From positions 1 through 47,807 of the IMG/VR virus record IMGVR_UViG_3300021168_000046: DNA of 47,807 bases. The stretch is one strand, 5' to 3'. Within the stretch, counting starts at the first letter, position 1, and each line of letters starts with the position of its first letter. Positions 10,973 through 30,635 of this stretch are shown here, in pieces. A program made the position numbers and the translations under genes. This DNA comes from a virus. The notes beneath the pieces are model-generated. The model did no database searches. It saw only the letters and a list, made by a program, of their open reading frames with translations, and was not told where the DNA came from.

Positions 10973-11251
10973 TCAGACCCGGCCGAGCTTGTTGATCTCC
11001 CTGTCAATGTCCTCGATCGAGAGGCGCTCGGGGTCCAGGTCGTCGGCCCTATCCTCTTGATCTCGTTGGTCTTTCGCCCTGCTGCCGATCGCGCCGACCA
11101 GCTCCAGGGCAGTACGGACCGCCGCGGCGCGGACGTTCGCGGGCACGCCCGGCGCAGTGACCAGAAGCTCAAGCGCAGCCTCTGCTTTCAATCGCAAACC
11201 GGTGTAGCCCTTAACCTCCTGATCAGACTGGGCCAACTGTCGGTCATCCAT
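10973..11251 (-). CDS. Candidate terminase small subunit or DNA-binding protein
   Basis: Ninety-two residues from ATG 11251 with GAGG five bases upstream; an upstream in-frame extension is open but would overlap the previous gene heavily. The sequence is helical: GLRLKAEAALELLV, an Ala/Val-rich helix, then an acidic linker and the C-terminal LSIEDIDREINKLGR. Helical proteins with such an LxxEDIDxEIxxLG ending are common in the terminase small-subunit position of alphaproteobacterial phages. It is second in the late transcription block, far from terL on the linear map. I call it a candidate only. Confidence 0.62.
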   Translation of the reverse strand: MDDRQLAQSDQEVKGYTGLRLKAEAALELLVTAPGVPANVRAAAVRTALELVGAIGSRAKDQRDQEDRADDLDPERLSIEDIDREINKLGRV

Positions 11252-11652
11252 GCCCTCGCGAACCGCATGCGGTCCCATTCGCTCGCCTGCCGATACGCTG
11301 GAAGCCTGGTCAATTCGAGAGGCACCACCGGCGACCGCCCCTCGACCATTGCGGCTCTGAACGCTGCGCTTCGACCTGACGGCTGAAATCTTCCTTGCCT
11401 TGACCATGCGCCAAACCCTCCGTGCGGTCCGCACACTGCAACCCCGCTCAACGCCACATTGCCGCAAGGTTGACCATTGCGCTTCGTCGCCGTGCAGATC
11501 CGATGGACGCCCGACCCGAAATAGGTTCGCTTCGCCGCCTCAAGCAACGCCGGCGGTGCAGTCTTTCGTCCGCCCCACAACTTCACCCGCTTCTGCATGC
11601 GTCGCTTTTTCGACGCCCGCCACGTCTCCCGAGTGAAGAACTCATCCGACAT
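11188..11652 (-). CDS. Zinc-knuckle (HGG-type) phage protein, first gene of the late block
   Basis: A product of 154 residues. The N-terminus is basic (RASKKRRMQKRVKLWGGRK). A cysteine motif follows, CTATKRNGQPCGNVALSG, then CGPHGG, with the C-x(6)-C ... C-x2-H-G-G spacing seen in small phage proteins thought to bind zinc and nucleic acid. An HTH-like C-terminal half overlaps the next gene by 64 bases. ATG 11652 is preceded by GGGAG at 11 bases; an in-frame GTG at 11664 is an alternative. It is the promoter-proximal gene after the AT-rich control region. Confidence 0.78.
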   Translation of the reverse strand: MSDEFFTRETWRASKKRRMQKRVKLWGGRKTAPPALLEAAKRTYFGSGVHRICTATKRNGQPCGNVALSGVAVCGPHGGFGAWSRQGRFQPSGRSAAFRAAMVEGRSPVVPLELTRLPAYRQASEWDRMRFARAWMTDSWPSLIRRLRATPVCD

Positions 11653-11694
11653 TTTCTGTCTCACTCCCGTCTCTCACACTGTAACGCACACATA

Positions 11695-11771
11695 GGGGGT
11701 CGCTATAGTTATAGTCGTATATTCGGCCCCCTCGCGCGCGCACGCGAGGCGCGCTCGCGCCTCACGTGCGC
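11695..11771. other. Stacked inverted repeats upstream of the late block
   Basis: Two stems follow each other. GGGGGTCG (11695-11702) pairs with CGGCCCCC (11724-11731), with one G-T wobble, around the palindromic CTATAGTTATAG. GCGCACGCGAGGCGCG (11738-11753) pairs with CGCGCCTCACGTGCGC (11756-11771) with a single mismatch and a two-base spacer. They sit in the presumed leader of the late transcript, directly next to the most AT-rich stretch I see in the window. Either a structured 5' leader or part of a replication origin would fit. Confidence 0.6.
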
Positions 11772-11920
11772 AGGTAGAAAAGAAATATAATATTATTTTA
11801 TTATATTATATTGTGTATATTTGTATTATTACCTTGTCTAACTCTATGACCCTAAAGACAATTTCGCTCATCACCCAAAATTAAACTGTCAATGATTCTG
11901 CTACACTCCAAAGGTTATTT
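11772..11920. promoter_or_regulatory. AT-rich tract, candidate late promoter and/or origin
   Basis: Bases about 11781-11830 are almost pure A/T in an otherwise GC-rich genome. Read leftward they contain two overlapping TATAAT sequences, and a perfect TTGACA lies further upstream near 11890. The tract is placed correctly to drive the leftward late block beginning at 11652. No gene is present on either strand between 11653 and 12020. AT-rich DNA flanked by strong inverted repeats is also the usual look of an unwinding element, so an origin cannot be excluded. Confidence 0.5.
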
Positions 11921-12020: not shown

Positions 12021-12587
12021 TTAAATCGCCGATCGTGCAGACCGCGGCTTGCGCATGCCTAACAGCGACAGAAAACCAAATCCCAATGCCAACATGGCCC
12101 ATGTCCCAGGCTCCGGCGTCGACAAGGCGGTGATCGTGCCGTCGACCGCGATATGGATCGGCGAGCCTCCGCTGACGCCGCTGATCTCGGCGAAATAAGC
12201 GCCGGCGCTGAGCACGTCGGGCGCGACCGTCGCCTCCTGCCCCCCGAGCACATTGACGATCGGCGAGCTTTCCAGGAACGCGCCCGCCGGAATGAACAAG
12301 GGTCCAAGACCCGTCGAGGTATGGGTGTCCAGCTCCAGGACGCCGCCGGTGATGCGTCCAGGGCCGATCGCGCTGTCGCTCATCGACACCGTCACGATCT
12401 CGGTCGTCGGCAGGGTGAACTCGAAGAATTCCTGAAACCCAATGCCGCTGCCGGGCGTGTCTTCAGCCGGCAGCGCCAGCGATTCATTGAACACCGCGCC
12501 AATGTTCTCGACGCTGATCTGCGCCGCCTTGGCCGGCCCAGCGCCGATCGCGGCGAGAAGCGCAGCCGTCAGGTAAAATCTATGCAT
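12021..12587 (-). CDS. Secreted PEP-CTERM (PEPxxWA) sorting-signal protein
   Basis: The 188-residue product has a signal peptide (hydrophobic core YLTAALLAAIGAG, cleavage likely after AKA near residue 21). A beta-rich body follows, with QEFFEFTLP near residues 52-60 and LSAGAYFAEISG near 126-137, reminiscent of FxDxF-type PEP-CTERM proteins. The tail is classical: TPEPGTWAMLALGFGFL, with PEP at 158-160, a hydrophobic helix, then a basic cluster. In bacteria such tails are recognised by exosortase, which handles exported surface or matrix proteins. I see no exosortase here, so the host would supply it. GAGG lies 10 bases before ATG 12587. It is most unusual for a phage and is probably a lysogenic-conversion gene. 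Confidence 0.9.
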   Translation of the reverse strand: MHRFYLTAALLAAIGAGPAKAAQISVENIGAVFNESLALPAEDTPGSGIGFQEFFEFTLPTTEIVTVSMSDSAIGPGRITGGVLELDTHTSTGLGPLFIPAGAFLESSPIVNVLGGQEATVAPDVLSAGAYFAEISGVSGGSPIHIAVDGTITALSTPEPGTWAMLALGFGFLSLLGMRKPRSARSAI

Positions 12588-12679
12588 GGTCGTTGTCCCT
12601 CAAGTCGTGTCGGGTGTCGGGGCCGTCCCCGCCCAACCCTATCTTGCACATAACAGGCCAGGATGTCAGTTGTGCGCAA
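12588..12679. promoter_or_regulatory. Divergent promoter region between PEP-CTERM and LuxR-type genes
   Basis: This 92-bp gap separates two genes transcribed away from each other. Read leftward it contains CTGACA, then 17 bases, then CAAGAT, a weak but plausible promoter for the PEP-CTERM gene. I see no clear inverted repeat of the length LuxR-type regulators usually bind. Shared control by the neighbouring LuxR-type protein is suggested by layout only. Confidence 0.4.
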
Positions 12680-12925
12680 ATGGACGCGACCCCGATGCTG
12701 TCCTGCCCCCTGCCGCTCTCGCCGCGCGAGCGCGAGTGTCTGTGCTGGGCGGCGCGCGGCAAGACTTACACCGAAATCGGACTGATTCTCGGGCTCTCGT
12801 TCGGCTCGATCAAAACCTATCTCGATCACTGCCGCTACAAGCTCAATGCCGTGACCCTGGCGCAGGCGACCGCGGCTGCGGTGGCGTTGGGGGTTCTGAC
12901 CCGTGAGGATCTGGCCGGTCGATAG
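12680..12925 (+). CDS. Stand-alone LuxR-type (GerE) helix-turn-helix regulator
   Basis: Eighty-one residues from ATG 12680. An in-frame TTG at 12593 would add 29 residues but runs through the divergent promoter, so I prefer the ATG. Nearly the whole protein is one LuxR C-terminal DNA-binding domain: LSPRERECLCWAARGKTYTE, then IGLILGLSFGSIKTYLDH with the recognition helix, then a C-terminal helix with the AVALGVL ending. There is no receiver or autoinducer domain, so activity is presumably set by its amount. It is divergent from the PEP-CTERM gene and its end overlaps the opposite-strand gene 12843-13082 by 83 bases. Confidence 0.9.
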   Translation: MDATPMLSCPLPLSPRERECLCWAARGKTYTEIGLILGLSFGSIKTYLDHCRYKLNAVTLAQATAAAVALGVLTREDLAGR

Positions 12926-17202: not shown

Positions 17203-17474
17203 CGGCGGCGGAGCGCCCCCACCTCCGTTCGTAAGTCGTAGACGTCGATGATCTCTCGCCACTCGCCAACCGTGAAACCGCTTTCGAGCCAGATGTCAGC
17301 CAGCATCAGGGTGAGCGCCAATACGGCCGCTGGCCCAGTCTCGTCGTAGGCTTTTCCCAAGGTCGGAAGCGTTTCTTTTCGTACTTTGTCGCTGGCGGCC
17401 TTGAATTGGTGTTCACTATCCGCGCCCATGTCCCACAGTTCCTTCTTTACTTTTCGGTCGTTGCCGACGTTCAT
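17199..17474 (-). CDS. Small hypothetical protein following the repressor-like gene
   Basis: Ninety-one residues, helical, with EHQFKAASDKVRKETLPTLG and the hydrophobic ETGPAAVLALTLMLADIWL, ending in basic residues. ATG 17474 overlaps the upstream XRE gene by 59 bases and has GAGG directly before it, too close to be ideal. ATG 17429, with AAGGA ten bases upstream, is the alternative start. Location next to the regulator suggests a role in the early or lysogenic programme, but that is inference. Confidence 0.65.
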   Translation of the reverse strand: MNVGNDRKVKKELWDMGADSEHQFKAASDKVRKETLPTLGKAYDETGPAAVLALTLMLADIWLESGFTVGEWREIIDVYDLRTEVGALRRR

Positions 17475-17922
17475 CCTCTAATAGAAGCCCCTGGATTTTG
17501 TGCGCCGTCTCCGCTGAGACAAATAATGCGAGCTGAATGAACACGGTGCCGTCTTCCGCATCGTGCGGCCTGGTGATCGACCAATCCGCAATGCCATGGT
17601 GCGCGGCCTTTACCAAAGTGGTGGGCGCGAGATGCGAGACTTTAACATTGAGCTTTTCGGCGAGCTTTTCCAAGTTCGCATTGTCGGGAAAACTCTTGCC
17701 GCGAATCCAGACCGAGATCCGGTCGCGGCCACGCGCGACATGCTTACCTTCGGTGTTGACGTAGCGCCCCCATATTTTCGCCGCCAGATCCGATTGCGTG
17801 AGTTCGCGCTCTTCCATGAGCTGTCTCAAACGCTTGGCAAATTCGAGATCACGGGCTCTCTCGGTGGGCATACGCGCCCCCGGCAGAAGCGGTGGTTTGT
17901 TAATCGTCTTGAAGGCGGGCAT
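17416..17922 (-). CDS. XRE-family repressor-like regulator heading the leftward cluster
   Basis: One hundred and sixty-eight residues. After a short leader comes a helix-turn-helix: LEFAKRLRQLMEERELTQSD, LAAKIWGRYV, then RISVWIRGKSFPDNANLEKL and AEKLNVKVSHLAP. The HTH is stretched by an insert (NTEGKHVARGRD) before the recognition region. The C-terminal part contains HDAEDGTVFIQLALFVSAET, which may mediate dimerisation; no LexA/CI Ser-Lys peptidase is visible. GAGGT lies 8 bases before the ATG. It diverges from the replication operon, the place of a lysogeny repressor. Confidence 0.85.
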   Translation of the reverse strand: MPAFKTINKPPLLPGARMPTERARDLEFAKRLRQLMEERELTQSDLAAKIWGRYVNTEGKHVARGRDRISVWIRGKSFPDNANLEKLAEKLNVKVSHLAPTTLVKAAHHGIADWSITRPHDAEDGTVFIQLALFVSAETAHKIQGLLLEDERRQRPKSKEGTVGHGRG

Positions 17923-29382: not shown

Positions 29383-29404
29383 GGTGGGTAGGATAGGTGG
29401 ATAG
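29383..29404 (+). repeat. 22-bp repeat overlapping the integrase ribosome site
   Basis: The segment reads GGTGGGTAGG, ATA, GGTGGATAG and is internally near-tandem. It matches 20 of 22 positions of 10948-10969 in opposite orientation. It ends two bases before the integrase ATG at 29406 and contains its likely Shine-Dalgarno sequence, so a protein bound here would affect integrase expression. Confidence 0.6.
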
Positions 29405-29405
29405 G

Positions 29406-30635
29406 ATGCTCAAAGAACACGATGTGATGAAACTGCCGGAAGGCAAGCACTGCTTCGGCGACTACCTCTGGCTCTCGGTCAAAGGCGCGAGCCGCTCGTG
29501 GGTCGTGCGGTTGCCGGCGGTGAACGGCAAGCGCCGCGAGGCCGGCTTAGGTTCGGCCGCCAAAGTGTCGCTGGCGCTCGCCCGCAAGGGCCGCGACGCC
29601 CTCATCGAACAGTTGCGCAACGGCGTTGACCCGGTCGCCGAGCGACAGGAGGCCAAGGAGGCTGCGGCCAAGCGTAAGACGTTCGCGGAAGCCGCCGAGG
29701 CGGTGATCGAGAAGAACCGGCAGGGGTGGAAGATCTCGCTTGAGGGCCGATGCTCGACGCTCGACCAATGGCGTCGCGACGTCGAGGTGACCTGCAAGCC
29801 GATCGCGCACAAGCTCCTCGACGAGATTGCCATCGCCGACATCAAGGGCGTGCTGCAGCCGTACTGGGATCGCGGCCAGCTCGACAGTGCTTCAAGTCTG
29901 CGTAAACGGATTGAAGCGGTGCTCGACTACGCGACCGCGCATGGCTGGCGCGCCGGCGACAATCCGGCGTCGTGGAACATCTTCAAACATCTGTGGCCGG
30001 GCGAGAAGGTCCAGGACGTGCATCACGCCGCCTTGCCCTGGCGCGACGCGCCGGCGTTCATGGCTCGCCTGCGCCAGTCGGGTGCGACGAGCGCTCGCCT
30101 GCTTGAGTTCATCATGCTGACCGCCGTCCGCTCGAACGAGGCGCGCGGCGCGACCTGGTCAGAGATCGACCTGGAGGCTCGCGTGTGGACGATCCCGGCG
30201 GCGCGGATGAAGATGCACCGCGACCACGACGTGCCCCTCTGTGACCAGGCTGTCGCCCTCCTGCGCCGGATGGAAACGGAGAAGATCGTCGAGAAGATTG
30301 ACAGCCCGTTCGTGTTCGTCGGCGGTCGCGGCGCGGACGCCAAGGCGGCCGGCAAGCCGATGCGCAACGCCAGCCTTTGGATGCTGATGCAGCGCGCCGG
30401 CGGCGAGGCGACCACGCATGGCTTCCGCTCGACCTTCCGCGATTGGTGCGGCGAGAACGGCGTCGATCGCGAACTGGCCGAGCGCTGCATCGCCCACAAG
30501 GTCGGCAGCGACGCCGAGAACGCTTACGCCCGATCGAGCCTGATCGCCCGTCGCCGGCCGATCATGGAAGCCTGGGGCGCATTCGTCGACGGCGCTCGTG
30601 ACAACGTGCTGCCGTTCGAAAGGCGGGCGGCATGA
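29406..30635 (+). CDS. int: P4-type tyrosine integrase
   Basis: Site-specific recombinase of 409 residues that inserts and excises the phage. An N-terminal arm-binding domain (DUF4102-like; WLSVKGASRSWVVRL and REAGLGSAAKVSLALAR) is followed by a SAM-like core-binding domain and the catalytic domain: R242 in TAVRSNEARG, K269, H338 and R341 in THGFRSTFRDW, H364 in CIAHKVG, and the nucleophile Y374 in ENAYARS. All catalytic residues are present. An in-frame GTG at 29397 is an alternative start. The stop overlaps the next small gene. Confidence 0.95.
   Translation: MLKEHDVMKLPEGKHCFGDYLWLSVKGASRSWVVRLPAVNGKRREAGLGSAAKVSLALARKGRDALIEQLRNGVDPVAERQEAKEAAAKRKTFAEAAEAVIEKNRQGWKISLEGRCSTLDQWRRDVEVTCKPIAHKLLDEIAIADIKGVLQPYWDRGQLDSASSLRKRIEAVLDYATAHGWRAGDNPASWNIFKHLWPGEKVQDVHHAALPWRDAPAFMARLRQSGATSARLLEFIMLTAVRSNEARGATWSEIDLEARVWTIPAARMKMHRDHDVPLCDQAVALLRRMETEKIVEKIDSPFVFVGGRGADAKAAGKPMRNASLWMLMQRAGGEATTHGFRSTFRDWCGENGVDRELAERCIAHKVGSDAENAYARSSLIARRRPIMEAWGAFVDGARDNVLPFERRAA

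Follow-up and report, generated by a model that had tools for sequence, protein, structure and literature searches.

A phage gene on the minus strand of the window (the whole 47,807-base stretch of DNA analysed here, which is an entire virus record) encodes a secreted PEP-CTERM protein, and comparison with related phages indicates that the exported domain and the sorting tag of these proteins can recombine at the PEP codon, making the gene modular. We judge it probable that this is a cargo gene of a temperate phage, one that uses the host exosortase to display a domain chosen by the phage on the cell surface of its infected or lysogenic host.

A phage-borne PEP-CTERM protein

The gene and the parts of its product are as follows.

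12021-12587, minus strand: PEP-CTERM protein gene with an ectodomain of family A; 188 aa, ATG start; assigned by profile matches and aligned homologues
12522-12587, minus strand: Sec-type signal peptide, residues 1-22, with cleavage at about AKA/A; read directly, its type conserved across homologues
12117-12521, minus strand: beta-rich exported ectodomain, residues 23-157; replaced by an unrelated domain in the sisters
12024-12116, minus strand: sorting tag, residues 158-188, with PEPGTWA, a helix (about 164-178) and the basic cluster RKPRSARSAI

Direct reading of the N-terminus, MHRFYLTAALLAAIGAGPAKA followed by A, identified n, h and c regions with a basic residue, a hydrophobic core and an AxA site; the C-terminus is TPEPGTWAMLALGFGFLSLLGMRKPRSARSAI. 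The initial annotation had proposed a secreted PEP-CTERM protein, and profile searches bear this out. Signal peptide, PEPGTWA, helix and basic cluster are all present, and the protein scored above the cut-offs of Pfam PF07589 (24.0 bits, cut-off 20.7) and TIGR02595 (17.6, cut-off 16); a genome-wide profile search gave 27.8 bits against PF07589 (E 2.1e-7). Although PEPGTWA fits the PEPxxWA form, the protein fell below the cut-off of the PEPxxWA-CTERM model NF035944 (24.6 versus 35 bits). It was also below that of the FxDxF model NF038126 (36.7 versus 50 bits, residues 6-180), and this match vanished once the signal peptide and tag were removed; membership of the FxDxF subfamily was rejected. 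No NCBIfam family matched the family A ectodomain alone, and searches of PHROGs and of solved structures by sequence returned no match to the protein. Twelve aligned homologues on other viral contigs are 56-67% identical, with P-E, W and G invariant in the aligned set. The family A gene is under purifying selection (median dN/dS of about 0.34 over 81 pairs). The homologues, this selection and the PEP-CTERM genes at the same position in sister phages all speak against a chance resemblance. AlphaFold models of the ectodomain were beta-rich and of low confidence (mean pLDDT 57 and 63), and Foldseek returned weak, non-specific and mixed jelly-roll matches to them, some to carbohydrate-binding modules; given this low confidence and the weakness of the structural matches, we drew no function from the models.

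Simple membrane anchors likewise combine a signal peptide with a C-terminal helix. The protein might then be a PEP-CTERM look-alike that stays anchored in the inner membrane and acts there without an exosortase, for example by keeping the DNA of other phages out of the cell. A host exosortase is an assumption, and PEA, PET, PEL or PEI replaces PEP in some relatives. However, the curated PEP-CTERM cut-offs were passed, PF07589 was matched by all 63 of the 63 distinct proteins of at least 80 aa from viral contigs, which fall into many unrelated ectodomain clusters, and the invariant P-E, W and G exceed the needs of a plain anchor. We regard such an anchor as improbable and continue with a substrate of the host exosortase.

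Besides terminase, capsid and tail-fibre genes, the window phage encodes a muramidase, a cell-wall hydrolase, a helicase, an exonuclease, a DNA polymerase and a primase. Other features that bear on its lifestyle and on the surroundings of the PEP-CTERM gene are listed below.

29397-30635, plus strand: tyrosine integrase with an arm-binding domain, indicating a temperate lifestyle
17416-17922, minus strand: CI-like helix-turn-helix regulator
12640-12669, minus strand: upstream stretch CTGACATCCTGGCCTGTTATGTGCAAGATA, candidate promoter region; 28 of 30 bases identical in L099 and partly shared with L100
11927-11965, minus strand: ACCCCC-loop hairpin immediately 3' of the PEP-CTERM gene, conserved with compensatory changes in sister phages
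12680-12925, plus strand: small LuxR/GerE-type helix-turn-helix gene, oriented divergently to the PEP-CTERM gene; no counterpart found in sister phages

Given the integrase, the CI-like regulator and the terminase, capsid and tail genes, the window phage is very probably a temperate tailed phage. Its nearest annotated relative is Microcystis phage Mae-Yong1326-1 (terminase 50%, capsid 58%), followed by Rhizobium phage RHph_N65 (terminase 44%, capsid 40%); both share related terminase and capsid genes with the window phage, and neither record has a PEP-CTERM match. The exosortase profile PF09721 found nothing in the 47.8-kb window record, as expected from the initial annotation, which had described a phage copy without an exosortase. 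A terminase-based search for lysogens in 84,980 prokaryote genomes found none, the only matches being two of 30% in Bacteroidales; an exosortase in the host is thus an assumption.

Sister phages were defined as terminase relatives at 79-95% identity, three of which cover the region (L015/L099, L016/L103 and L022/L100). In all three, which come from other metagenome datasets, a PEP-CTERM gene occupies the same slot as in the window, between an HGG-motif protein (11188-11664) and leftward early-type genes. The slot therefore holds a PEP-CTERM gene in 4/4 group phages that cover it, the window phage included. The sisters' gene encodes an unrelated protein of 239-240 aa, which we call family B. 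Since three sisters from other datasets fill the slot and the tag DNA is shared with a sister, an assembly chimera with host DNA is excluded and the gene is genuinely phage-borne. The same-locus gene in related phages that the initial annotation had proposed to look for is thus a PEP-CTERM gene with an unrelated ectodomain.

No consensus promoter was called at the upstream stretch, nor was any consensus promoter or terminator called on the flanks of the window gene, which may thus be transcribed together with the same-strand late genes and not as a prophage unit of its own. The ACCCCC-loop hairpin lies 3' of the PEP-CTERM gene in the window phage and in L099, L100 and L103, and a similar hairpin follows the PEP-CTERM gene of L002, a different phage; an Rfam search with it gave no match. 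By eye, a hairpin and T runs also follow the PEP-CTERM genes of L003, L005, L045 and L084. The sigma-54-like GG-N10-GC that precedes the window gene recurs in L099, not in L100 or L103, and is not claimed. The LuxR-type neighbour, not conserved in the sisters, is a lead and was not adopted as a regulator. Further along, at 11690-11900, a strongly AT-rich stretch (ATATAATATTATTTTATTATATTATATT) adjoins GC-rich inverted repeats and keeps its position in the sisters; it is possibly a replication origin or a late promoter region.

Ectodomains and tags around the PEP codon

The proteins of the window phage and its sister L099 are 20% identical in the ectodomain and 75% identical in the tag. At the DNA level, identity stays at background up to the PEP codon and is 75-100% from precisely that point on. 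The tag DNA is 80% identical; in the survey of cross-family pairs, the window's own pair gave 85% in the tag and 29% in the 75 nt ahead of PEP. Counted per 20-nt block, identical bases number 11, 6, 6, 5, 10 and 2 before PEP and 15, 20, 16 and 17 after it. The window tag is closer to that of L099 than to the tag of any family A homologue compared (41-63% aa).

This pattern extends beyond the window group. For 30 of 81 unique family A and B proteins, the nearest tag belongs to the other ectodomain family. Cross-family pairs with at least 75% DNA identity in the tag (n = 25) have a mean identity of 32% in the 75 nt before PEP, equal to the 32% background before PEP over all cross-family pairs, whose mean in the tag is 58%. 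The clearest are L176-L111 (tag 91%, before PEP 32%), L174-L111 (89% and 32%) and L167-L112 (85% and 39%); several pairs have members in common and are not independent events. The swap between A and B on near-identical tags also recurs in an integrase-linked phage group. Judged from these alignments, the exported domain and the tag recombine at the PEP codon.

Some tags depart from the PEPxTWA form. In L139, L146 and L147 a family B ectodomain is joined to other tag types (VPEPFSLG, VPEPASLG and VPEPATLG), which suggests that these genes may have moved to hosts with a different exosortase. Elsewhere the second P of PEP is replaced by L, I, A or T (PELSTW, PEISTW, PEASTW, PETSTW), in one set of loci comprising L166, L169, L186, L191-L194, L203 and L209 and in a second comprising L117, L134, L149-L153, L161, L177 and L183. 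Such variants would be useful for studying tag specificity.

Viral distribution and genomic neighbourhoods

Family A was found at 54 IMG/VR loci, whereas a single-sequence search had given 9 full-length relatives, and family B at 50. A scan for the PEP[G/A]TWAM motif returned 58 stretches, about 49 of them outside families A and B. There are thus well over 100 PEP-CTERM copies on viral contigs, with several unrelated ectodomains; many records are fragmentary, and host flank may be part of some contigs that belong to neither A nor B. Among 50 PEP-CTERM-carrying viral records, many of them fragments, none had an exosortase by PF09721, 21 had an integrase and 18 a PF03237 terminase.

The gene occupies cargo-type positions, either convergent with an integrase gene or beside portal or terminase genes. 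The PEP-CTERM genes of L003, L005, L045 and L084 are convergent with a tyrosine integrase. By tblastn, the same arrangement was found for family A copies at L163, L167, L168, L171, L174, L176, L181, L201 and L207 and for family B copies at L111, L112 and L113, and about a dozen copies of each family adjoin portal or terminase genes. Pfam confirmed the integrases in L005 and L045, an SU10-type portal in L008 and a terminase in L009. As both A and B occur beside integrase and both beside portal or terminase genes, one slot serves either ectodomain in at least three groups of phages. A third ectodomain family lies between replication genes in L011, which is distantly related to the window phage. 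Some contigs carry two PEP-CTERM genes, paired or apart (L013/L095, L066, L053, L059 and L092), as does contig 3300021475_000019 (L163 and L181).

The main rival to a lysogenic role is a late, lytic one, which we consider unlikely. The protein would be made late and sorted to the surface, aiding virion release or escape from the matrix or preventing progeny from re-adsorbing to debris. Such timing would suit the window gene, which lies on the same strand as, and just ahead of, the tail, lysis and terminase genes and is not followed by a called terminator, and it would suit the L002 and L175 copies, which lie between muramidase and terminase genes. Other copies, however, are convergent to integrase genes and have terminator-like hairpins on one or both sides, integrases are present in the window phage and many other carriers, and a host sorting step would seem slow for a lytic burst.

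Outside viral contigs, no relative of family A was detected in the 84,980 prokaryote genomes by an exact-pattern search, which could miss distant relatives, nor in plasmids. None of 50,697 annotated phages matched family A, the tag or the other queries. As a positive control, the same tag query recovered annotated PEPxxWA-CTERM proteins on Sphingomonadales plasmids. These results bear on whether the gene was recently acquired from a host and is carried passively with no benefit to the phage. PEP-CTERM genes are common in many bacteria, the ectodomains vary widely, and many of the IMG/VR contigs whose ectodomains are of other kinds could be the ends of prophages together with host flank. Passive carriage is nevertheless disfavoured, and we give it very little credence, in view of the empty exact-pattern search of genomes for family A, the purifying selection on it, its 54 viral loci and a slot occupied in every one of the four group phages that cover it.

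The initial annotation had put the number of such phage genes at very few or none, and we likewise found no earlier description in the literature, the 50,697 phages or PHROGs. In the literature covered on PEP-CTERM or exosortase together with phage, prophage or virus, which samples subscription journals thinly so that absence is not proof, no paper describes a phage-encoded PEP-CTERM protein; a paper on Microcystis viruses (PMC12642866) concerns host genes. PHROGs contains no PEP-CTERM family matching these proteins, and phage PEP-CTERM genes are therefore likely to be annotated as hypothetical.

Proposed role at the host surface

Bacterial PEP-CTERM proteins are found where EpsH and EPS genes occur, and in the accepted model the tag retains the exported protein until exosortase cuts the protein, which then moves on to the surface or polymer layer (PMC1569441). 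The phage proteins share with this EpsH/Xrt system the signal peptide, PEP motif, helix, basic cluster and matches to PF07589 and TIGR02595, and like their bacterial counterparts they are short proteins with an ectodomain of their own. They differ in being encoded by phages whose records lack exosortase (0/50), in the exchange of ectodomain and tag at the PEP codon and in scoring below the PEPxxWA-CTERM and FxDxF cut-offs.

By analogy, the phage protein would be exported through the Sec route and stay anchored in the inner membrane through its C-terminal tag until the host exosortase cut the tag at PEP. The beta-rich domain would then either be set free to the outer surface or the exopolysaccharide layer or become attached there. 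The phage would bring the substrate only, with the enzyme supplied by the host, and expression would presumably be from the prophage. Within a phage lineage the tag would be kept, presumably as a fit to its hosts' exosortase, and the exported domain exchanged by recombination at the PEP codon. Retention of the tag with replacement of the ectodomain is what would be expected if the tag is fitted to a host enzyme and selection on the ectodomain keeps changing, for example through competing phages. The most likely benefit would be a changed lysogen surface, leading to superinfection exclusion, in which competing phages could no longer adsorb, or to altered matrix or aggregation.

Several features are those of morons, extra genes in variable slots of temperate phages that can alter the surface, including by superinfection exclusion. 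The window phage is able to integrate and carries, in a fixed slot, a variable gene that differs between sisters; across carriers the genes adjoin integrase or are flanked by structural genes, and sister phages carry unrelated cargo. That relatives have the gene convergent with a neighbouring integrase gene fits the lysogenic-conversion factor suggested by the initial annotation. That reading needs enlarging, given well over 100 viral copies, several unrelated ectodomains and the recombination at the PEP codon; the gene is not a lone curiosity. Lysogenic conversion by an interchangeable surface-display cassette that uses the host exosortase is probably the better description.

A partial precedent is SasX of staphylococci, a prophage-encoded surface protein and sortase substrate. 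There too a prophage supplies a surface protein that needs a host sorting enzyme to be anchored. SasX, however, is a single protein with an LPXTG wall anchor for a Gram-positive sortase, whereas the phage PEP-CTERM proteins carry a Gram-negative-type tag for an unrelated enzyme and have many interchangeable ectodomains. We know of no lysogenic-conversion cargo gene that uses the exosortase route, and as far as we found this route has not been described for phages. Phage cargo that alters the host surface is a known kind; what is new, as far as we found, is the sorting route and the unexpected modular exchange.

The modularity also provides a natural experiment on exosortase specificity: near-identical tags occur on different ectodomains and, conversely, one ectodomain occurs on PEPxTWA, PEAxTW, PETSTW, PELSTW and PEPASLG tag types. 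PEP-CTERM-carrying phages probably redecorate the surface of the bacteria in which they live. More tentatively, and with rather less confidence than in the display function itself, they may represent a widespread, undescribed form of Gram-negative surface remodelling, in which swappable ectodomains on an exosortase tag kept within each lineage would give lysogens differing coats, the diversity arising from recombination at the PEP codon. Bacterial PEP-CTERM proteins are needed in floc formation and raise bound polymer (PMC9850573). If our interpretation is true, the exosortase route would join the means by which prophages change the host surface, the hosts being environmental bacteria that rely on PEP-CTERM proteins and exopolysaccharide for their flocs and biofilms.
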